NCBI RefSeq assembly: GCF_023511815.1
Contig: NZ_JAIMAV010000025.1
Coordinates: 1-32,080, forward strand
Direction: 5' to 3'
DNA length: 32,080 bases
Origin: Alicyclobacillus sp.
Lineage (GTDB): Bacteria > Bacillota > Bacilli > Alicyclobacillales > Alicyclobacillaceae
The notes under the pieces were generated by a model. The model did not search any database and had not been told where the DNA came from. It was given only the letters and a program-made list of their open reading frames with translations. A program made the position numbers and the translations under genes. Of this stretch, positions 2,227-22,184 are shown piece by piece (the first letter of the stretch is position 1; the number at the start of each line of letters is the position of its first letter).

Positions 2227-3015
2227 ATGACCGGATCGAGAGAACCGGGTCTTGACGGGCAGCCGGTGGACGAGCCGTTCGGCGGGGGCCGGGCGCGGCC
2301 GGGCGGACCCGGTTCGGGCGGGCGGAATCCCGCCGTGCCGCGGCCGGCCGCGACGCTGATCCTCGTGCGCGACGGGGCCGAGGGGGTTGAGGTGCTGGGC
2401 GTGCGCCGGGCGGCCGGGATGCGGTTTTTGCCGGGGCACGTGGCGTTCCCCGGGGGCGCCGTGGATGCGGCGGACGGGCGGCCTCTGGACGGAGCCGTGC
2501 GCGGCGGGGTGCAGATGCCGCAACCGGGCGGCGACGACCTGACCGCGTACGCGGTTGCGGCGGTGCGGGAGTGCGCGGAGGAGATCGGCTGGCTGTGCGC
2601 CCTCTCGGGGGCGGCCGGCCCGTCCCGCCGGGTGCCGGGGCCGCTTCGCACCGCGCTGCTGGAGGGGCGTGCGGACCTGTGGTCGGTGTTGGCGGCGCTG
2701 GACGAGACCATCGATCTGAGTCAGCTTCGCTACGTCGGCCGTTGGATCACGCCGCCGCCTCAGCCGGTCCGCTTCGACACCCGGTTTTTCATCTGCCGGA
2801 CGGGGACGGCGATTCAGCCCGATTGGCACCCGGCGGAACACGACTGGGCCGGCTGGCGGCCGGCCCGGTGGTTGCTGTCGGAGATGATCGGTGGCAGGGC
2901 GCAGGCGGTGCGGCCCACGCGGGCCATGCTCGAGGCCGTCGCGAGATGCCGCACAGCCGAAGAGGCGTTCACGACCCTGTGGGTGCCGGGCCCTGTGGAT
3001 GGACGGGCCCCGTGA
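2227..3015 (+). CDS. Nudix hydrolase (NUDT7/NUDT19-like, split Nudix box)
   Basis: A 262-residue hydrolase expected to cleave a nucleoside diphosphate linked to another moiety; CoA or a similar dinucleotide is plausible from the subfamily. The core begins near residue 38 (AATLILVRDG) and continues through FLPGHVAFPGGAVD. The catalytic helix carries RECAEEIGW, matching REUXEEXGU. Between the GG and RE halves lies an insertion of about 25 residues, as in the NUDT7/NUDT19 type. The first 35 residues are a Gly/Pro/Arg-rich low-complexity tail. The ATG at 2227 is preferred over 2221 because AGGAGG (2213-2218) is then eight bases away. The 3' end overlaps the convergent MBL gene by 47 bases. Confidence 0.85.
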   Translation: MTGSREPGLDGQPVDEPFGGGRARPGGPGSGGRNPAVPRPAATLILVRDGAEGVEVLGVRRAAGMRFLPGHVAFPGGAVDAADGRPLDGAVRGGVQMPQPGGDDLTAYAVAAVRECAEEIGWLCALSGAAGPSRRVPGPLRTALLEGRADLWSVLAALDETIDLSQLRYVGRWITPPPQPVRFDTRFFICRTGTAIQPDWHPAEHDWAGWRPARWLLSEMIGGRAQAVRPTRAMLEAVARCRTAEEAFTTLWVPGPVDGRAP

Positions 3016-3865
3016 CCAGCCGGTACACCGTGGCGTTGTCGGAATCGATCCGCTCCACCTGGCCGAGTTCCACGAGGTGCTGCAGGTGGCCCTCGACGGT
3101 GCGCACCGCGGCCGTCCGAGCGCCCTCCGGAATGGTGCCTTCGTACAGCGCGCGGGCAAGATCCTCGACGGTCCCGGGTCGGCGCGCCAGGTGCGCCAAA
3201 ATCTCGCGTTCGCGGCCCTGGCGGCGGGCCTTGAGCGCGCGGGCGGCCGCCGCCGCGTCCATGAGGGCCGGGCCGTGGCCGGGGCCCGCGATGCGGCAGG
3301 GGCTGTCGGCGATGGCGTCGAGCGCGCGATAGTAGGACGCCATGTGTCCGTCCGGCGGGCCAATCCACACGGAGCCTTCTCCCGCCAGGTGGTCGCCGAC
3401 CAGGATCACGCCCTCGTCCGGAATCTCCACGTGCACGTGGCCCGGCGTATGGCCGGGGTGGTGCCGGATGAAAAGCGTGACGCCGGCCACGTGGAGCGCC
3501 GGGGGCGGGGGCGCGAGGGCCGCGCGGTCCTCGGGGGACCAGGAGAGCCGCGCCTGGTCGAGCGGGTGCATCAGCACGTTGGCATCGAGGGTGCGGTGAA
3601 GGGCGGGCAGGCCCGCGGTGTGGTCGCGGTGGTGGTGGGTGGCGATGAGGGCGACAACGCGCCGCACCCCGAGGTCGGCGAGGATCGACCGGAGCGCTTC
3701 GAGCGACGCTTCCTCGGACGTACCGGCGTCCACCAGGACGCCTTCTCCATCCTTGCAGATGACGTACGTGTTGGTGGCCACGGCCGGCGGGAGCGTGGAC
3801 GTCGGAACACTGATCTGATGCACGTGCGGGGACAACCGGGTGACCGGAAGTTGCGGTGTCGGCAT
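2969..3865 (-). CDS. MBL-fold metallo-hydrolase (LACTB2-like) with C-terminal winged helix
   Basis: A 298-residue metallo-beta-lactamase-fold protein. The metal-binding motif is THHHRDH with H77, H79, D81 and H82. Later ligands fit HPGHTPGH, GDHLAGEG and GPGHGP. Residues about 225-290 (AHLARRPGTVEDLAR through LVELGQVERID) look like the short winged-helix tail seen in LACTB2-type proteins, some of which act on RNA; the substrate is not readable here. The start at 3865 has AAAGGTGGGA upstream; an in-frame ATG at 3889 has no site. A minus-strand TATAAT at 3893-3888 may be its -10 box. The gene is divergent from the adenosyltransferase, with only 54 bases between them. Confidence 0.88.
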   Translation of the reverse strand: MPTPQLPVTRLSPHVHQISVPTSTLPPAVATNTYVICKDGEGVLVDAGTSEEASLEALRSILADLGVRRVVALIATHHHRDHTAGLPALHRTLDANVLMHPLDQARLSWSPEDRAALAPPPPALHVAGVTLFIRHHPGHTPGHVHVEIPDEGVILVGDHLAGEGSVWIGPPDGHMASYYRALDAIADSPCRIAGPGHGPALMDAAAAARALKARRQGREREILAHLARRPGTVEDLARALYEGTIPEGARTAAVRTVEGHLQHLVELGQVERIDSDNATVYRLVTGPVHPQGPAPTGS

Positions 3866-3919
3866 CGGGATCCCACCTTTCAGCGTCATTATATCGTTTT
3901 CAGAGGAGTCGAGGATGGC

Positions 3920-4510
3920 ATGCGGATCTACACCAGATCGGGCGATGAGGGGCAGACCAGCCTCATCTACGGACGGCGGGTGAGCAAAGCGTCCCAACGC
4001 GTTTGCACGTATGGGACCATCGACGAGGCCAATTCCGCCATCGGCCTGGCGGTCGCGCGCCTGAATGGCGACGCGCGATTCGGCGACCTTTGCGGGTATC
4101 TCGGGCGGGTGCAGCGGGATTTGTTCGATCTCGGCCGCGACCTGGCCACACCGCTGGACAAACCGTCGACACCGTACACCACGGAGGAAGACGTGCTCTT
4201 GTTGGAGAAGATGATTGACCGGCTCGACGCCGAAAACCCTCCGCTCACGCGGTTCATCCTGCCGGGCGGCCACGAGGCGGCCGCCCGGCTGCATCTGGCC
4301 AGGACGGTGGTCCGGCGCGCGGAACGGGAGGTGGTGGCGCTCGGCGAGGCCGAGCCGGTGCAACCCTTCATCCGGCGGTACCTCAATCGCCTCTCCGATC
4401 TTCTGTTTGTCATGGCGAGGGTGGTGAACACGCGCTGTGGGGTGGAGGAGCCGGCGGTCGACTTTCAGGCGCCAAAGCCAAACCCGTTTGCGGACGAGCC
4501 AAAGGCGTGA
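3920..4510 (+). CDS. pduO: PduO-type ATP:cob(I)alamin adenosyltransferase
   Basis: A 196-residue enzyme that transfers the adenosyl group of ATP to cob(I)alamin, making coenzyme B12. Family signatures are present: the N-terminal ATP loop TRSGDEGQTSL, TYGTIDEANSAIG, FILPGG, and VRRAEREV followed by RYLNRLSDLLFVMAR. The length is typical for the homotrimeric PduO/MMAB family. The ATG at 3920 is preceded by GAGGAG and GAGG; an ATG at 3915 is in another frame. It ends 27 bases before the HAD gene and probably forms an operon with it. The adenosylcobalamin-dependent ribonucleotide reductase lies about 1.6 kb downstream and would use its product. Confidence 0.93.
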   Translation: MRIYTRSGDEGQTSLIYGRRVSKASQRVCTYGTIDEANSAIGLAVARLNGDARFGDLCGYLGRVQRDLFDLGRDLATPLDKPSTPYTTEEDVLLLEKMIDRLDAENPPLTRFILPGGHEAAARLHLARTVVRRAEREVVALGEAEPVQPFIRRYLNRLSDLLFVMARVVNTRCGVEEPAVDFQAPKPNPFADEPKA

Positions 4511-5548: not shown

Positions 5549-6034
5549 ATGCGCTGCCCCTACTGCGAAACGGACAACTCCCGCGTGATTGAATCCCGCG
5601 CCAGCGAGGACGGCACCAGCATCCGGCGCCGGCGCGAGTGCACCAACCCCGCGTGCGGAAGAAGGTTCACCACGTACGAACGAATTGAACACCGGCCGCT
5701 GATGGTCGTCAAAAAGGACAACAAGCGCGAGGAGTTTTCGTACGAGAAGCTGTACCGAGGGCTGATGAAGGCGTGTGAGAAACGGCCCATCTCGGCAGAA
5801 CAGGTGGAGCGGGTGGTCGAGCGGATCGACCGGCGGCTGCGCCTGGAGTACGAGCGGGAGGTGCCCTCGGCCGTCATCGGTGAGCGGGTCATGGAGGAGC
5901 TGCGCGCGCTCGACGGTGTGGCGTACGTGCGCTTCGCGAGCGTGTATCGGCAGTTCCGGGACGTGGAGACGCTGGCCAAGGAGGTCCTGTCCCTGTTGCA
6001 GGAGTCGGCGGGCGGGCGGAAGCCGGGGACGTGA
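5549..6034 (+). CDS. nrdR: Transcriptional repressor NrdR
   Basis: A 161-residue regulator of ribonucleotide reductase genes that senses ATP/dATP. The N-terminal zinc ribbon shows CPYC (residues 3-6) and CTNPAC (31-36), followed by the DNA-binding segment RRFTTYERIE. The ATP-cone domain follows from about residue 49 (MVVKKDNKREEFSYEKLYRGL), ending with VAYVRFASVYRQFRD, which is highly characteristic of NrdR. The ribosome binding site is weak (GAGG about eight bases before ATG). The gene has its own promoter and is followed 75 bases later by nrdJ, so the two are probably co-transcribed and under NrdR control. Confidence 0.96.
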   Translation: MRCPYCETDNSRVIESRASEDGTSIRRRRECTNPACGRRFTTYERIEHRPLMVVKKDNKREEFSYEKLYRGLMKACEKRPISAEQVERVVERIDRRLRLEYEREVPSAVIGERVMEELRALDGVAYVRFASVYRQFRDVETLAKEVLSLLQESAGGRKPGT

Positions 6035-6109: not shown

Positions 6110-9100
6110 ATGGCCAAGGTGATGGAAGAGAGCATGCTGCCGTTCACGGACGAGGACCGGCTCGGTGCCACCGGGGAGCGGATTGTGGCGGATCGCTATC
6201 TGCTCAAGGACGTCCGCAAGGAGACCCTTCAGGTGGGGTCGCTGGTGGTGGCGGTGCTCGACAAGAAGCGGGCGTACCACGAACTGGCGAGGGTCGTCGA
6301 ATTGGATGAGGAACACCACACCGTGACCGTCGAGTTGAAGGACGGTCATCGGGAGGTGCTGCCGCATCACCAGGTGGATGTGCTGCTGGAGACGTCGCCG
6401 CGTCAGATGTGGCGGCGCGTCGCGGCCGGAGCGGCGGCGGTCACGCGCGACCCGGAGCACTGGGCGGGGCGGTTCTACCAGCTGCAGACCGGTTGGAAGT
6501 ATGTGCCCGGCGGGCGCATCAACGCGTCTCTGGGGACGGGCATGCAGGTGACCAGCTACAACTGTTTTGTCATCCCGAGCGTCGGGCCGACGATGCGGGA
6601 TTACGCCGAGTCGTTCGGGCAGACGTTGGAGATCCAGGCGCGCAGCGGCGGCGTGGGCATGAATCTGTCCCGCATCCCGCCACAAGGTACGTACATCCCG
6701 GTGTTCTCCGGCTCGCGGCGGCCGTACCTGCATCTGGTGCTGGACGTCTGGCATCCCGATCTGCCCGAGTTTCTGCAGGCGGAATACCCGCACAGCACAA
6801 AGGTGGTCCGGGTCAGCCGCGAGTTTTTGCGGGCCGTCGAGGAGGATGCCCCTTGGCGCATGGGCTTTCCGGAGACGAGCGTGGACGGGTATGACGACCG
6901 TTGGACCGGCCGCCTGGAGGACTGGCTGGAAGAGGGGCTGCCCGTCAACTGGCAGGAACCAATCCCGGCGCGCCGGCTGTACGAGTCCATCCTCTCGAGC
7001 GGCGCCCTGGTGCTCAGCGACGTGATCGGCACCCTGCTCGTCCCGGGCGACCAACGCAGCACCATCGCATCCACGCTCGGCGACATGTGGGAACGCATGG
7101 CCGAGGGCAAGCAGGTGTCCATCCTCCTGTCCTCTCTGCGCCCGCGCTACAGCTATGTGCGCGGGGTCAACGGGCGCAGTTCGGGCGCCTACTCGTGGGG
7201 CACGCTGTACGACAAGGGAAACCAGGTGTTCGGGGAAGGCTTCGGCCCGGTGGGCGTCGGCGAGATCATGAGCGTCGGCTGCCAGCTTACCCTGCAGGGC
7301 GGGTCGCGGCGCGGCGCCCTAATGCTGATTCTCAACGACCGTCACGCGGACGTGCTGAAGTTCATCCGCTGCAAACAGGTGGACGGGGTGATCACCGGGG
7401 CCAACATCTCCGTCGGCATCTCCGAGCGCTTCATGGAGGCCAAGGAGAGAGGGGAGCCCTGGTCGCTCGGGTTCGTCCCGAAGGACAGTTGGTCGGCGTT
7501 TGACGGCGATTTCGACGCTTGGGTGAACGCGGACAACCCGTTCGAGGTGACCGAGACCATCCAGGCGGACGCGCTGTGGGACGAGCTGGTTCACTCCGCG
7601 TGGAAATCGGCGGAACCGGGCGTGGTGTTCCTCGGCCGCGCCAACCGCATGAGCAACTCCTGGTACTACAATCCCTTGGTGGCGACGAATCCGTGTTTCC
7701 ATCCGGATACGCGCATCGCAACCGAGTTCGGATTGGTCCGCATTGAGGATTTGCATCGCCGTGTCGGGCGGAAGGCGTTTCGACTGGTGTCAGACGACAG
7801 GACGTGGGCGGCTTCGGTGGTCGTAAACGGCCGCAGTTATCCAGCAGTGGGGACAACGGTCCGAGAGGGCCTCGTGTTTCCAACCGGGGTTCGACAGACG
7901 GTCCGCGTGGTGCTGGATAACGGCATGGAATTGAAGGTCACGCCGGATCACCGCCTGCTCACCCGCCGGGGATGGGTCGAGGCCGGAGCACTCACGGCGG
8001 AGGACGTCGTATATGTCCAGTCCGGTCCGGGCCTGTTCCCGGCGAAGGACGACCTGGGCCAGGAGTGGGGGTGGTTCCTCGGGTGGCTGACGGGGGACGG
8101 GTGGATCTCGACGAACGGGCAGGTCGGGCTGGTGTTTGGGGCCGAGGACGCGGAGGCGGCCGCGGTGTTGCGGGAGATCGGCAATGCGCTGAGCGGATCG
8201 AACGTGTCCGTCACGCGGCGGCAGAACGGGGTCCTGCAAATCACGTGGAAGCGCAGTGCTTTCCGTCAGCGGCTCCTTGAACTGGGGGCGGGAGTGGTCC
8301 GGGCCCATGAGAAGCGCGTTCCGGAAGCCATCTTCCAGGCGGCCAGGCCGACGGTGGTCGCATTCCTGCAGGCTCTGTTCAGCGCAGACGGAACGGTGGG
8401 TTACACGGACGAAGCCCATCGCACTGTTCGACTGTCGTCGGCTTCCAAGGAATTGCTTCAGGATACCCAATTGCTCCTGTTGCAGTTCGGTATCCACGGC
8501 AAAATCTATGCCCGTCCGAAGTCAAACCAGAGGCGATTTACCTACCAAACCTTGGACGGTGAGGAGAGGACATACGACCATCACCCGCACTTTGAACTGA
8601 TCCTTTCCGGGAATAACGTGGATCAGTTCTACCGGGACATCGGGATGCCTTTGGTGGCGCGCAAGCAGGCCCGTCTGACGGAGATGGCTCGACCCTCTCG
8701 CAAGTCGGAGAAATTCGAGAGTCGGGTCTCACGCGTGGAACCGGGTGAGGAAGTGATGGTGTATGACATCCATGAGCCGATGACGCATTCATTGATCGCC
8801 AATGGCCTGGTGGCGCACAACTGCGGCGAGCAGCCACTTCCGGCCAACGGCATCTGCAACCTGGGGGCGGTGGTGCTGAGCAAGTTCGCGGCCGGGTTTG
8901 CGGACAGCGGAGAACGGGTTGAATTCGCCGACCGGGAGAAAGAGGCGTATGTCCGCGGCTGGCTGCGGAAGCACTTCGACGAGGAGAAGGCGGAGTTCTT
9001 GCTCCACCATGTCAAGTGGGAGCAGCTCGAGGACACCACGCGCGCGGGGATCCGGTTTCAGGATGCGGTGATTGACGCCACGTATTACCCGTTCGAGGAG

Positions 9101-10474
9101 AACCGCCGCAACCAGATGCAGGAGCGGCGCGTCGGCCTCGGCATCATGGGGCTGCACGACCTGTTGCTGTACTGCGGCATTCGCTACGGCTCAGAGGAAT
9201 CGGTGCGCTTCATCGACGTCCTGATGGGGTTGATGGCCGAGTGGTGTTACCTGGAGTCCGTCGAGATCGCCAAAGAGTATGGGCCGTTCCCGGCGTTTGA
9301 CGCGGAGAAGTTCCTCGCCTCGGGGTATATGCAACGGATGGCCGAGGAGCGGCCGCACGTGGCGGAGGCCATTCGGAAGCACGGGGTGCGCAACGTCACC
9401 TTGATGACCATCGCCCCGACGGGGACGACGGGCACGATGGTGGGCTGCTCGACCGGATGCGAGCCGTACTACGCCTGGTCGTACTTCCGGAACTCACGCC
9501 TGGGCATGTTCGAGGAGAACGCGTCCATCGTGCAGGAGTACTACGACACCCACCCGGGCGCCGAGCGGCTGCCGGATTACTTCGTGACGGCGATGGAGCT
9601 GTCGCCGGAGGACCACGTGCGGGTGCAGGCGGCGCTGCAGAAGTGGATTGACAGCTCCATCTCGAAGACGTGCAACGCGCCGAACTCGTACACGGTCGAA
9701 GACACCAAACGCCTGTACGATCTCGCATATCAGCTCGGCTGCAAGGGGATCACCATCTATCGCGACGGGTCCCGCTCCGAGCAGGTGCTCTCGTTGAAGG
9801 CGGACAAAGCCGCGCAGGCGGGGGCCACCGAGGAACCTCACGGTGCGGGGCACCAGGACGGCGGGCCCCAGGGGGCCGCGCCGAGCGAGGCGGCGCCGAC
9901 GTCGGATCGCACGCAGAACGCCCCGCCCGCTCAGGCGGCCTACCAGAAGCGCAGGCGGCCGGACGTCCTGTACGGAGCGACGTACAAGAAGGAGACGCCG
10001 CTCGGCAAGGCGTACATCACCATCAACGACGATCCGGAGGAACACGTCGCCCTCGAGATCTTCGTCAACATCGGCAAGGCGGGCAGCGACGTCTACGCGG
10101 CGAATGAGGCGCTGGGCCGCGCCATCACGCTGTATCTGCGCGACTCGCGCAACCCGAACAAGGAGGCGGAGCTGGTCAAGCACTTCGCGGGGATCGGCGG
10201 ATCGAACTCCGTCGGATTCGGGGATCGGCGCATCACCTCGGTCCCGGACGCCATCGCCAAGGCGCTCATTGAGCACTCGGAGACGTTCCCGCTGCGCAAG
10301 GCGGCCTTCCGCGAGTGGGCGAGCGGCCAGGAGACGGCCGTGGCCGAACCCGAGCGGTCGGCCCTGCGCGAGTACTCGGTGGGCAAAGATCTGTGCCCGA
10401 ACTGCCACCAGCACACATTGGTCCGCACCGGCGGTTGCTACGAATGCGAGGCCTGCGGATTCAGCAAGTGCTGA
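6110..10474 (+). CDS. nrdJ: Adenosylcobalamin-dependent (class II) ribonucleotide reductase, intein-containing precursor
   Basis: It reduces ribonucleotides to deoxyribonucleotides using adenosylcobalamin. The precursor is 1454 residues; residues 529-904 are an intein, leaving a 1078-residue enzyme. Redox cysteine C152 is in SYNCFVIP. The radical cysteine C905 begins the C-extein in CGEQPLPANG, and C916 in ICNLG is its redox partner. The phosphate-binding APTGTTGT segment follows. Residues about 35-94 are an SH3/Tudor-like insertion with LQVGSLVVAVLD and VTVELKDG. A TSCPD domain spans about 1287-1395. The tail C1429-C1454 has six cysteines (CPNC, CYECEAC, C-terminal C), suited to zinc binding or re-reduction of the active site. 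The ATG at 6110 has GGGAGG seven bases upstream. The upstream nrdR and nearby adenosyltransferase support the class II assignment. Confidence 0.95.
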   Translation: MAKVMEESMLPFTDEDRLGATGERIVADRYLLKDVRKETLQVGSLVVAVLDKKRAYHELARVVELDEEHHTVTVELKDGHREVLPHHQVDVLLETSPRQMWRRVAAGAAAVTRDPEHWAGRFYQLQTGWKYVPGGRINASLGTGMQVTSYNCFVIPSVGPTMRDYAESFGQTLEIQARSGGVGMNLSRIPPQGTYIPVFSGSRRPYLHLVLDVWHPDLPEFLQAEYPHSTKVVRVSREFLRAVEEDAPWRMGFPETSVDGYDDRWTGRLEDWLEEGLPVNWQEPIPARRLYESILSSGALVLSDVIGTLLVPGDQRSTIASTLGDMWERMAEGKQVSILLSSLRPRYSYVRGVNGRSSGAYSWGTLYDKGNQVFGEGFGPVGVGEIMSVGCQLTLQGGSRRGALMLILNDRHADVLKFIRCKQVDGVITGANISVGISERFMEAKERGEPWSLGFVPKDSWSAFDGDFDAWVNADNPFEVTETIQADALWDELVHSAWKSAEPGVVFLGRANRMSNSWYYNPLVATNPCFHPDTRIATEFGLVRIEDLHRRVGRKAFRLVSDDRTWAASVVVNGRSYPAVGTTVREGLVFPTGVRQTVRVVLDNGMELKVTPDHRLLTRRGWVEAGALTAEDVVYVQSGPGLFPAKDDLGQEWGWFLGWLTGDGWISTNGQVGLVFGAEDAEAAAVLREIGNALSGSNVSVTRRQNGVLQITWKRSAFRQRLLELGAGVVRAHEKRVPEAIFQAARPTVVAFLQALFSADGTVGYTDEAHRTVRLSSASKELLQDTQLLLLQFGIHGKIYARPKSNQRRFTYQTLDGEERTYDHHPHFELILSGNNVDQFYRDIGMPLVARKQARLTEMARPSRKSEKFESRVSRVEPGEEVMVYDIHEPMTHSLIANGLVAHNCGEQPLPANGICNLGAVVLSKFAAGFADSGERVEFADREKEAYVRGWLRKHFDEEKAEFLLHHVKWEQLEDTTRAGIRFQDAVIDATYYPFEENRRNQMQERRVGLGIMGLHDLLLYCGIRYGSEESVRFIDVLMGLMAEWCYLESVEIAKEYGPFPAFDAEKFLASGYMQRMAEERPHVAEAIRKHGVRNVTLMTIAPTGTTGTMVGCSTGCEPYYAWSYFRNSRLGMFEENASIVQEYYDTHPGAERLPDYFVTAMELSPEDHVRVQAALQKWIDSSISKTCNAPNSYTVEDTKRLYDLAYQLGCKGITIYRDGSRSEQVLSLKADKAAQAGATEEPHGAGHQDGGPQGAAPSEAAPTSDRTQNAPPAQAAYQKRRRPDVLYGATYKKETPLGKAYITINDDPEEHVALEIFVNIGKAGSDVYAANEALGRAITLYLRDSRNPNKEAELVKHFAGIGGSNSVGFGDRRITSVPDAIAKALIEHSETFPLRKAAFREWASGQETAVAEPERSALREYSVGKDLCPNCHQHTLVRTGGCYECEACGFSKC
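7694..8821 (+). mobile_element. NrdJ intein with LAGLIDADG homing endonuclease domain
   Basis: An in-frame 376-residue intein (precursor residues 529-904), inserted between NP and CGE of the NPCGE active-site motif. Splicing residues are canonical class 1: Cys1 in CFHPDTRIAT, block B VTPDHRLL (TxxH), block F VYDIHEPMTHSLIANG, and block G VAHN with penultimate His and terminal Asn. The +1 residue is the enzyme's radical cysteine. Two dodecapeptide motifs, FLGWLTGDG (656-664) and FLQALFSADG (752-761), keep both acidic residues, so the homing endonuclease may be active. No stop or frameshift interrupts it. Splicing is needed to make functional reductase. Confidence 0.96.
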
Positions 10475-18706: not shown

Positions 18707-19983
18707 CGGGGCTGTGGCTCGGCGCGACGAAGGTGGACATCACCCCCCGGACGCCCGTGCCTCTGGCCGGGTTCGCGCACCGCACCGGCGTGTCCGAAGG
18801 GGTGGCGCATCCGCTGTACCTGCGCGCCTTCGTCCTCGCCCAGGGAGGCGTCCGCGTGGTGTGGATCACCGCCGATCTCATCTGGTGGGGCCCGGAGTTG
18901 GCCGGACGCCTGCGTCGCCGTATTTCGGATGGGTGGAGCATCCCGCAGGCACACGTCCTGTTGCATGCCACGCACAACCATTCCGGGCCGCAGACCACCG
19001 CCCGCTTCACCGCCCCCCTCGGCCGGCCGGATGAGGAGTACATTCGCCAGCTGGAGGCTGCCGCCGCGGAAGCGGTGGCGGCGGCGTCCGGTCATCTGGA
19101 GCCCGTGTCGCTGGCGGTCGGAACAGGGGTGTGGGGCGCGGGTGTGAATCGACGGCGCGTGATCGACGGAGTCAGCCGGATGGCGCCCAATCCCGAGGGT
19201 CCAAACGATCCACGGGTCACCGTTCTCTCGTTTGTCCGCCCGAACGGCCGCCCGAAGGCACTCTGGGTGCACGCCACGTGCCATCCCACCACCACCGATG
19301 ACAACCGGGTCTCCCCGGACTTCCCCGGGGTGGCCATGGATGCGCTGGAGGCACTCCTGGGCGGTGGGACGGTCGCCGGTTTTCTGCAGGGCTTCTGCGG
19401 TGACGTGCGGCCCAACCTGACACGGAATGGGGAATTCATCCGCGGAACGCAGGCGGACGTGGAACACGTCGCCGGCCAGCTGGTGGATGCGGTCGGGGAG
19501 GTCCTGCACACCCCGCTTCGGGATGCAGGGGCCCCGTTGCTCAAGGTAACCGAGTGGGACGTCCCGCTCCGGTATGCTCGGGTTCCGGGCGAGGACGAGC
19601 TGGGGCAGGCCGCGTCATGTCCCGGCATCCGCGGGGAGTGGGCCAAGCGGCTGATGGCCGAGCGGGAGAGAAGGTGCACATCCGTGCCGCTGCACCTGAC
19701 AACCGTTCGGTTGACGGGAGGGATCGGATTTGTCGCCGCGGACGCGGAGATGGTTTGCGATTACGGGCTGAACCTGCGCCGCATCAGCCAGGGCCGCCTG
19801 CTGCCCGTCGGGTACACGAACGGCATGATCGGTTACGTCCCGACGGCCGGACAGATCCGGGAGGGCGGCTACGAACCGTACGAGTCGTGCTTCTACTTCG
19901 CGTTGCCGTCACCGTTTGACGAGCGTATCGAGGCGGCTATCCTGGACGCCTTTCATCACATCGAAAAAGGGTGTTGGTCGTGA
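18703..19983 (+). CDS. Neutral/alkaline ceramidase-like protein with altered amidase motif
   Basis: A 426-residue cytoplasmic-looking protein (no signal peptide) related to the N-terminal domain of neutral ceramidases. It shows GATKVDITPRTPVPLAGF, then the zinc motif HATHNHSGP (H91, H93), and WVHATCHPTTT (H190, H194) as the later metal histidine region. The amidase hexapeptide of ceramidases, GDVSPN, reads GDVRPN (R236 at the serine position), so the known nucleophile is missing. The C-terminal immunoglobulin-like domain of true ceramidases is absent. It is translationally coupled on both sides, to the epimerase and to the NagB-NagA fusion. A role on an N-acyl amino sugar or glycoside is inferred; ceramide hydrolysis is unlikely. 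Confidence 0.82.
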   Translation: MTGLWLGATKVDITPRTPVPLAGFAHRTGVSEGVAHPLYLRAFVLAQGGVRVVWITADLIWWGPELAGRLRRRISDGWSIPQAHVLLHATHNHSGPQTTARFTAPLGRPDEEYIRQLEAAAAEAVAAASGHLEPVSLAVGTGVWGAGVNRRRVIDGVSRMAPNPEGPNDPRVTVLSFVRPNGRPKALWVHATCHPTTTDDNRVSPDFPGVAMDALEALLGGGTVAGFLQGFCGDVRPNLTRNGEFIRGTQADVEHVAGQLVDAVGEVLHTPLRDAGAPLLKVTEWDVPLRYARVPGEDELGQAASCPGIRGEWAKRLMAERERRCTSVPLHLTTVRLTGGIGFVAADAEMVCDYGLNLRRISQGRLLPVGYTNGMIGYVPTAGQIREGGYEPYESCFYFALPSPFDERIEAAILDAFHHIEKGCWS

Positions 19984-22184
19984 GAGAATTCGTGCATCCT
20001 TGTGTCGACTTCCAAGTGGACGCGCTCGAGGTGCGGGTGTACGAGGATCGCGACGCGATGGGCCAGGCCGCCGCGGCCCACGTCGCGGACCTGATGAACC
20101 GCCTTCTGACTGAGCGCGGCCATATCCGAATGGTCTTCGCGGCCGCCCCCTCCCAGAACGAGCTGTTGGCTCACCTGGCCCAGCATCCAATCGACTGGTC
20201 TCGCGTAACGGCCTTTCACATGGACGAGTACATCGGGCTCGCCTCGGACGATCCGCGCCGCTTCGTCCACTACCTGCGCACGCACCTGTTCGACCTCGTG
20301 CGCCCGGGCACCGTCCATACCCTCGATCCCGCCGACGACCCGGTACAGGAATGCGATCGCTACACCCGGCTGCTCCAGGAGGCGCCCATCGACATCATCT
20401 GCCTCGGCATCGGTGAAAACGGGCATATCGCCTTCAACGATCCGGGCGTCGCCGACTTTGAGGACCCGGCATGGGTAAAGGTGGTACCGCTCGATCCGAG
20501 ATCCCGCCAGCAACAGGTCCACGATGGGTGCTTCCCCACGCTCGACGAGGTGCCGACGGCCGCGGTGACGCTCACGGTGCCCGTCTTCCGGTCGGCCTGC
20601 CACCTGGTGGCGGTTGTGCCCGGCCCGACGAAGCGGGAGGCGGTGCGGCGAACGCTGCAGGGTCCCGTCACGCCCGAATGCCCGGCCTCCATCCTGCGCA
20701 CCCACCCGGACGCGGTGCTGTTCCTGGACCGGGATGCGTACGGGGGAGGAGATGGGGGCGCGAGTGAGCCGGAGACGAGGTTTGATCGTGAATACCCTGT
20801 GAGGCCGGATGAAGTTGTGGGGGGGCAGGCGGGCACACATGGCGTCAAGGACACTCGGTTCGTGACGTCCACTGGTGCGGAAGACGCTGTCCTTCTGGCC
20901 CCTGAGCCCCGGGTGCACGTTTCCGATTGTGAGGCGCTTCTGCGGGTGGAGGGTCGCCATTATCGCACCGGTATGCCCGTGGCGGTGGAGCTTAGGGCGG
21001 GGCGGATCGTCCGGGTGACCACGGCACCGGAGCGGCCTGGGTTGCCGTGGATTGGGCCGGGCCTCGTTGATCTCCAGGTTAACGGCTTTCGCGGGATCGA
21101 CTTCAACACCCGCCCCCTCACGACGGCGGCCATTCAGCGTGTGGTGCATGCCCTATGGGCGGAGGGGGTGACGACCTTTTTGCCGACCCTTATCACGAAC
21201 GGCGACGAGGCCATCGCGGAGCTCGCCGCAAGCGTGGCGCATGCGATTCGGGATGAAGCTGACGGAGGCGTGGGGCAGGGGTTGTGGGATCCGGCCATTG
21301 TGAGCGAACACGACGAGCGGGAACGATCCGGTAGGATCCCCACCATCCCCGGCATCCACCTGGAGGGGCCGTTCATCTCGCCGGAGGATGGCCCCCGGGG
21401 CGCCCACGATCGGCGCTACGTGCAGCCGCCCGACTGGGACCGGTTCCGGCGTTGGCAGGAGGCCGCGGACGGACGGATTCGCCTGGTCACCCTATCACCG
21501 GAGTGGCCGGAGGCGGCGGCCTTCATCGCCCGCTGCGCGGCCTCGGGCGTCCGGGTGGCCATCGGGCATACGGCGGCGGGTTCGGATCAAATCACGGCCG
21601 CCGTCCGGGCCGGGGCCACGCTGTCCACGCACCTTGGCAACGGGGCTCACCCCGTGCTTCCGAGGCACCCCAATTACATCTGGGATCAGTTGGCCTGTGA
21701 CGATCTGTGGGCGTCCGTCATCGCCGATGGCTTCCATCTTCCGGACGCCGTGCTGAAGGTGTTCCTGCGGGCCAAGGGGGAGCGGGTGTTTCTCGTCAGC
21801 GACGTGGTGGACCTGGGTGGCCTCGCGCCCGGACGATACACCACCCACATCGGCGGAGATGTGGTCCTCACGCCCGAGGGGAAGCTGCACCTGGTCCATC
21901 AGCCGGAACTCCTGGCGGGTTCGGTACAGAGTCTGCGTCAGGGCGTTGGCAATTTGGTGGCGAAGGGGCTGTGTTCGCTGGCGGACGCCTGGGGGATGGC
22001 GTCCGTGCGCCCGGCGGACTACCTGGGGCTACCTGTGGCTCGTGATATCGCGCCCGGCGAGCCGGCGGATCTGGTGCTGTTCACCTTTGACGGGCAGGTG
22101 CGTGTGAAGCGGACTTTGAAGGCCGGCGTGATCGTCTACGACTCGTACGAAGAAATGGATCCAGGTGGCCGGTCAGGTGTCTGA
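19980..22184 (+). CDS. NagB-NagA fusion: glucosamine-6-phosphate deaminase plus N-acetylglucosamine-6-phosphate deacetylase
   Basis: One uninterrupted 734-residue frame joins two enzymes of one pathway. Residues 1-260 are NagB-like: FHMDEYIGL gives D82, and LGIGENGHIAFNDPG gives H149, with N147 and D154 where E. coli has Asp141 and Glu148. A polar linker runs from about 261 to 305. Residues about 306-725 are NagA-like: GPGLVDLQVNG (the E. coli-type motif lacking HxH), E462 in GIHLEGPFISPE, H530 in IGHTAAG, H551 in STHLGNG and catalytic D608 in LVSDVVDLGG. The GTG start overlaps the preceding stop by four bases. The fusion would deacetylate GlcNAc-6-P and then deaminate GlcN-6-P to fructose-6-P. 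A pre-existing start before the NagA half has no in-frame ribosome binding site. Confidence 0.92.
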   Translation: MREFVHPCVDFQVDALEVRVYEDRDAMGQAAAAHVADLMNRLLTERGHIRMVFAAAPSQNELLAHLAQHPIDWSRVTAFHMDEYIGLASDDPRRFVHYLRTHLFDLVRPGTVHTLDPADDPVQECDRYTRLLQEAPIDIICLGIGENGHIAFNDPGVADFEDPAWVKVVPLDPRSRQQQVHDGCFPTLDEVPTAAVTLTVPVFRSACHLVAVVPGPTKREAVRRTLQGPVTPECPASILRTHPDAVLFLDRDAYGGGDGGASEPETRFDREYPVRPDEVVGGQAGTHGVKDTRFVTSTGAEDAVLLAPEPRVHVSDCEALLRVEGRHYRTGMPVAVELRAGRIVRVTTAPERPGLPWIGPGLVDLQVNGFRGIDFNTRPLTTAAIQRVVHALWAEGVTTFLPTLITNGDEAIAELAASVAHAIRDEADGGVGQGLWDPAIVSEHDERERSGRIPTIPGIHLEGPFISPEDGPRGAHDRRYVQPPDWDRFRRWQEAADGRIRLVTLSPEWPEAAAFIARCAASGVRVAIGHTAAGSDQITAAVRAGATLSTHLGNGAHPVLPRHPNYIWDQLACDDLWASVIADGFHLPDAVLKVFLRAKGERVFLVSDVVDLGGLAPGRYTTHIGGDVVLTPEGKLHLVHQPELLAGSVQSLRQGVGNLVAKGLCSLADAWGMASVRPADYLGLPVARDIAPGEPADLVLFTFDGQVRVKRTLKAGVIVYDSYEEMDPGGRSGV

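Follow-up and report, generated by a model that had tools for sequence, protein, structure and literature searches.

The intein and its splicing residues

The nrdJ gene of the window, by which we mean the whole stretch of 32,080 nucleotides analysed here, encodes a class II ribonucleotide reductase (RNR) that is interrupted directly before its radical cysteine. This raises the questions of what kind of element lies there, whether it could still splice and move, and whether the cell could do without its excision. The features on which the analysis draws are listed below, in window coordinates.

2891..4510, plus strand: open reading frame with a C-terminal PduO-type cobalamin adenosyltransferase (residues 347–521; TIGR00636, 1.3e-56)
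5549..6034, plus strand: nrdR, transcriptional regulator of RNR genes, directly upstream of nrdJ (TIGR00244, 5.5e-58)
6110..10474, plus strand: nrdJ precursor with intein (class II, adenosylcobalamin-dependent RNR), 1454 aa; open frame from the ATG at 6110 to the stop codon at 10472–10474
6110..7693, plus strand: N-extein, 528 aa, C-terminal end ...VATNP
7694..8821, plus strand: intein, 376 aa, CFHPDTRI...LVAHN, from translation, profile matches and alignment
7694..7696, plus strand: Cys1, first splicing nucleophile and sole cysteine of the intein
7940..7951, plus strand: block B, TPDH (T83, H86)
8048..8683, plus strand: LAGLIDADG homing-endonuclease domain, residues 119–330, limits approximate, from profile match and model
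8096..8098, plus strand: D135, first LAGLIDADG acidic residue (Asp in 31 of the 32 rows of the close Bacilli clade)
8387..8389, plus strand: D232, second LAGLIDADG acidic residue (Asp in 30 of the same 32 rows)
8765..8821, plus strand: blocks F and G (D358, H365, H375, N376)
8822..10471, plus strand: C-extein, 550 aa, N-terminal CGEQPL
8822..8824, plus strand: Cys+1, precursor C905, C529 of mature NrdJ, equivalent to Thermotoga maritima C322 by alignment
8855..8857, plus strand: second active-site cysteine, equivalent to T. maritima C333 by alignment, where some relatives carry an extra intein

The intein codons are in frame with nrdJ and run from Cys1 (7694–7696) to Asn376 (8819–8821), followed by Cys905; in precursor numbering the insertion thus lies between P528 and C905. 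Re-translation gave the same numbering (C905, 1454 residues) as the original prediction. The intein was matched by the Pfam profiles LAGLIDADG_3 (PF14528, 3.4e-20) and Intein_splicing (5.1e-10) and by the NCBIfam profile intein_Nterm (1.5e-9), and NrdJ_Z matched over the whole protein (1.7e-154). In natural empty alleles the sequence ...VATNPCGEQPL is continuous, and removal of the intein from the window gene restores NPCGE. In T. maritima NrdJ we take C322 to be the thiyl-radical cysteine and C333 to be the second, redox-active catalytic cysteine. When an empty-site homologue (G001, locus L009) was aligned to that chain (1xje), the NPCGE cysteine fell on position 322 and the cysteine 11 residues past it on position 333. 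The claim that the intein stands directly before the radical cysteine of NrdJ, splitting NPCGE, is thus borne out by translation together with the alignment to T. maritima C322. Chance or an assembly artefact was rejected as an explanation, given the strong profile matches and the same insertion in a second genome; that genome, G009, was assembled as a single 3.6-Mb contig (G009:C1), so the intein is not an artefact of assembly. The open reading frame with the PduO-type domain also lies upstream of nrdJ, and the adenosyltransferase product is the cofactor of NrdJ.

We found that the window intein has every residue needed for splicing, C1, T83, H86, D358, H365, H375, N376 and C+1, and the alignment agreed with the earlier statement that the set is complete. 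A cysteine at position 1, a TxxH block B, a penultimate histidine, a C-terminal asparagine and a cysteine at +1 are the pattern of a class 1 intein. In the close Bacilli clade, with its 32 rows (5 of them exact repeats of other rows, as two collections overlap), C1, T83, H86, K207, D358, H375 and N376 were present in all, and H365 in 27. An AlphaFold model of the intein, built with 12 sequences, had a mean pLDDT of 88.2 and a pTM of 0.89 with a single weak loop at residues 39–51. The model has the Hint fold, and its top Foldseek matches were the full-length inteins 7qsu (6.7e-21), 7qss and PI-PfuI (1dq3, 5.8e-17). PI-PfuI and the TliVMA intein (7qsu) share the overall arrangement of Hint and LAGLIDADG domains with the window intein but are only 13–19% identical to it, and 7qsu interrupts a V-ATPase subunit. 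From sequence and model, the element is very probably a full-length LAGLIDADG intein of the standard class 1 type. It sits at a frequently used RNR hotspot, immediately in front of the class II radical cysteine, and is predicted to be active in both splicing and cleavage.

The motifs and fold suggest a route for splicing. Cys1 would attack the carbonyl of Pro(−1), the radical cysteine, acting as C+1, would accept the N-extein by transesterification, Asn376 would cyclise, and an S-to-N shift would leave the normal ATNPCGEQ peptide. One cysteine would then fill two successive roles, first as splicing nucleophile and later as the thiyl-radical residue of the enzyme. Proline occupies −1 in 32 of 32 clade rows; in several model inteins a proline at this position is unfavourable for the first splicing step, and a literature search that touched on the −1 proline returned nothing. 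The last intein residue was also tabulated for 67 radical-site rows, 57 of which end in Asn, 5 in Asp and 5 in Gln; a non-standard C-terminal residue is therefore found in several RNR inteins that occupy this site.

The endonuclease domain

Both acidic residues of the LAGLIDADG motifs, D135 and D232, were found intact in the alignment, in line with the original prediction, together with the basic block D residue K207, the combination of a LAGLIDADG intein. The window intein has the full 376 residues and no insertions or deletions relative to 11 of 11 aligned relatives. For the endonuclease region dN/dS was 0.04–0.17 in 9 of 12 pairs; in the other three, which include the window pair, synonymous sites were saturated. 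The domain would cut intein-free nrdJ alleles at a conserved run of codons, and repair would spread the element.

A different history is conceivable, in which the intein still splices while its endonuclease is already dead in the window strain and inheritance is now vertical only. Close relatives do include such states, with probably damaged endonucleases in L045 and L096 (Kyrpidia MAG; D232G) and in L089 (D135E) and shortened inteins in L049 (355 aa) and L101 (354 aa), and at the neighbouring site L080 has a mini-intein of 137 aa. In addition, GC3 is lower in the intein (0.75) than in the exteins (0.88 and 0.90), which could mean relaxed selection or foreign origin. The presence of D135, K207 and D232 and the undisturbed length speak against a dead endonuclease, which we regard as unlikely, and a full-length intein that may still cleave is the reading that we prefer.

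Probable dependence on splicing

The window genome is 99.3% complete in 165 contigs, and PF02867 matched only nrdJ and a locus on contig 13. NrdD was absent from this 99.3% complete genome in the profile search. No class I alpha subunit was found in it with PF02867 or with the class I NrdA of G009 as query, and no class I R2, the sole R2 match being an R2-like ligand-binding oxidase. An intact backup RNR was accordingly rejected for this genome on searches with PF02867, PF00268, PF13597 and the class I NrdA of G009.

The locus on contig 13 (G000:C13:55545-56927; L113, 5546-6928, minus strand) is a class II RNR fragment with an uninterrupted NPCGE that is open at the contig end. An in-frame fusion joins it to the C-terminal portion of a PALP (threonine-synthase-like) domain in a threonine-biosynthesis neighbourhood, and it represents either a gene that has been broken or a misjoin in the assembly.

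Because no other intact RNR was found in the genome, splicing of the NrdJ intein is probably essential, judged on genome content only. The earlier claim that excision is essential thus gains indirect support, as NrdD, class I alpha and R2 are missing from the genome and the other RNR is a fragment.

An insertion at an essential catalytic residue in a genome with no other intact RNR would also suit an intein that acts as a regulated switch, in which the radical cysteine is freed only after a redox or other cue. In the accessible part of PMC8772380, the Aquifex aeolicus R2 obtained from a construct with the intein had a higher iron content and doubled activity. We consider such a switch very improbable here. 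C1 is the lone cysteine of the intein, residue −4 is Ala in 8 of the 32 clade rows, the window included, as against Cys (CTNP) in 20 and Ser in 4, and close relatives lack the intein altogether. The suggestion that zinc or redox state modulates splicing therefore found no backing in the sequence, the only intein cysteine being C1. A disulfide between C1 and C+1 of the window precursor is possible, and in the CTNP copies the −4 cysteine could form one with C1. That the intein is instead a degenerate, non-splicing copy that inactivates nrdJ can be set aside almost entirely, as it has no stop codon or frameshift and all splicing residues, in a genome without another intact RNR.

Spread of the intein and a possible hop between catalytic cysteines

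The window genome (G000) has one copy of the intein. Within the order it was present in 2 of 59 genomes, the window's own and G009, which belongs to another genus; a third, weak match in G007 had none of the RNR junction motifs. The original prediction had proposed a comparison with sister strains, and empty sites were indeed found in them: the same-genus genomes G001 and G002 read VATNPCGEQPL without interruption, and the site is empty in other relatives as well. In a sample of the class, a cutoff of 1e-8 gave matches in 17 of 398 genomes. Thirteen of these, the window genome included, have an FHP-type intein at the radical-cysteine site (376 aa in 12, 355 aa in G407). Of the other four inteins, that of G165 interrupts a class I NrdE at the homologous SNL^C site, and three lie in a different gene, which from its motifs is presumably DnaB-like. 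The phylum sample gave matches in 54 of 398 genomes, again counting the window's, and the intein followed directly after the N-P of NPCGE in 29 of the 29 loci read besides the window. A scan of named genomes placed 20 of 20 loci at the radical-cysteine site, 19 of them in Bacilli (Paenibacillus, one Cohnella and one Kyrpidia MAG) and one in a Candidatus Nitrosotalea (thaumarchaeal) MAG. Viral contigs matched at six loci, and the five that were read all had the NP^C insertion. The radical-cysteine site is occupied in dozens of genomes as well as in phage RNRs, and the window insertion is not unusual.

The history of the intein was traced by comparing it with its exteins. Between the window and G009 the inteins are 73.7% identical and the exteins 79.4% and 80.8%. 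Towards the other subgroups, extein identity was taken over 400 residues before and 300 after the intein (L085, L109 and L110 were not used owing to alignment failures). Intein identity to the Paenibacillus, Cohnella and G081 rows compared is 53–63%, while extein identity reaches only 47–52%, and horizontal movement of the intein between NrdJ subgroups is therefore well supported by sequence comparison. For the Kyrpidia-type rows (G097, G078, G121, G112), extein identity is 75% and intein identity 57–63%.

An extein tree of 32 intein-bearing and 28 empty rows (60 in all) placed the window as sister to the empty G001/G002 (support 99) and G009 with the empty G022 (98). On this tree intein presence changed at least 3 times, a minimum, as the empty Paenibacillus alleles were left out. 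In the intein tree the window pairs with G009 (support 98–100). L061, L062, L054 (the second piece of G407) and L079, whose NP^C intein resembles that of L057, were left out of the trees. At the sequence level, identities and trees together show long-term mobility. Within the family there are two carriers (G000 and G009), and an old presence with repeated loss fits as well as separate gains.

More recent events were also considered. When identity in the flanks was followed with distance, no stretch stood out clearly as raised towards G009 and no co-conversion tract was seen, which lends no support to a recent transfer with a co-converted tract. Phages and plasmids were rejected as immediate donors, since the matches, in 35 phage and 3 plasmid records, were all below 60% identity.

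The neighbouring catalytic cysteine can be interrupted as well. In five genomes (G659, G529, G636, G562 and G746) the class II RNR is interrupted twice by inteins, at the radical cysteine and again before the cysteine 11 residues on. These loci of the same phylum (L055, L056, L057, L079 and L080) have their insertions 11 extein residues apart, and the second intein of L080 is the 137-residue mini-intein.

In G659 the second-site intein is 42.3% identical to the window intein, as against 35.5% for its own radical-site intein. A careful intein tree was built with two DnaB-type outgroup rows and three second-site rows kept; 12 near-copies were omitted, as were 4 rows that were long, short or doubtful. 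It joined the second-site rows, the archaeal and viral rows and the Bacilli clade in one group (99/99) among radical-site inteins. When the second-site rows were forced to a basal placement at the outgroup, the cost was 12 log-likelihood units (AU p 0.067), so an origin outside the radical-site inteins is less favoured but still plausible. The nesting suggests that the intein may have hopped between the two catalytic cysteines. We lean slightly towards a history in which one RNR intein lineage hopped between the C322- and C333-equivalent cysteines, its second-site cousins lying in same-phylum class II genes that also bear a distantly related radical-site intein, and in which both cysteines are one hotspot served by switching endonuclease specificity. 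With both catalytic cysteines invaded, and a lineage common to class II subgroups, an archaeon and viruses, the case illustrates why inteins persist at residues intolerant of imprecise loss.

Several described inteins can be set beside this one. Among them are the Bacilli FHPDTR-type NrdJ inteins (Paenibacillus, Cohnella, Kyrpidia), which occupy the same site, are mostly 376 aa long and are 49–63% identical to the window intein; they lie mostly in a diverged NrdJ subgroup (exteins 47–52%) and, unlike the window copy, some have damaged or shortened endonucleases. The SPbeta BnrdE intein (NC_001884, annotated as a putative intein) resembles it in its homologous radical-cysteine site (SNL^C) and in having Cys at 1 and +1, but its host is a class I NrdE and the intein is about 29% identical to the window's. 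The A. aeolicus R2 intein, as far as the accessible part of PMC8772380 goes, is likewise a LAGLIDADG intein splitting RNR catalytic residues and splices out in Escherichia coli; it differs in subunit and site, separating two di-iron ligands and not interrupting the large subunit at its radical cysteine.

In the accessible part of PMC4071816, allele rir1-b comprises 75 inteins (15 from Halobacteria, 55 from Bacteria and 5 from other Euryarchaeota), and its list includes Alicyclobacillus pohliae and Bacillus subtilis. The window site is probably the rir1-b allele, an assignment made via B. subtilis/SPbeta and not from printed insertion residues. That inteins occur in RNRs and at critical positions of replication enzymes is well established according to the accessible part of PMC5874633, and the window intein is a further case. 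The original remark that RNR inteins are known and that insertion at catalytic motifs is typical accordingly stands on that paper and the surveys; its match to rir1-b is indirect, the residues not being printed in the part of the survey at hand. A literature search over titles and abstract openings, with few subscription papers, gave no report stating an intein at the radical cysteine, and we make no claim that it is unpublished.

Taken singly, the window element is ordinary, and its value lies in offering a clean test case. Sister genomes exist with the site filled and with it empty, the searches turned up no intact backup RNR, and the catalytic radical residue doubles as +1, so growth would report splicing directly.

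Elsewhere in the window, an open reading frame of 737 residues at 19971-22184 (plus strand) matches NagB (glucosamine-6-phosphate deaminase) in its first third and NagA (N-acetylglucosamine-6-phosphate deacetylase) in its second half, and is likely a NagB–NagA fusion.
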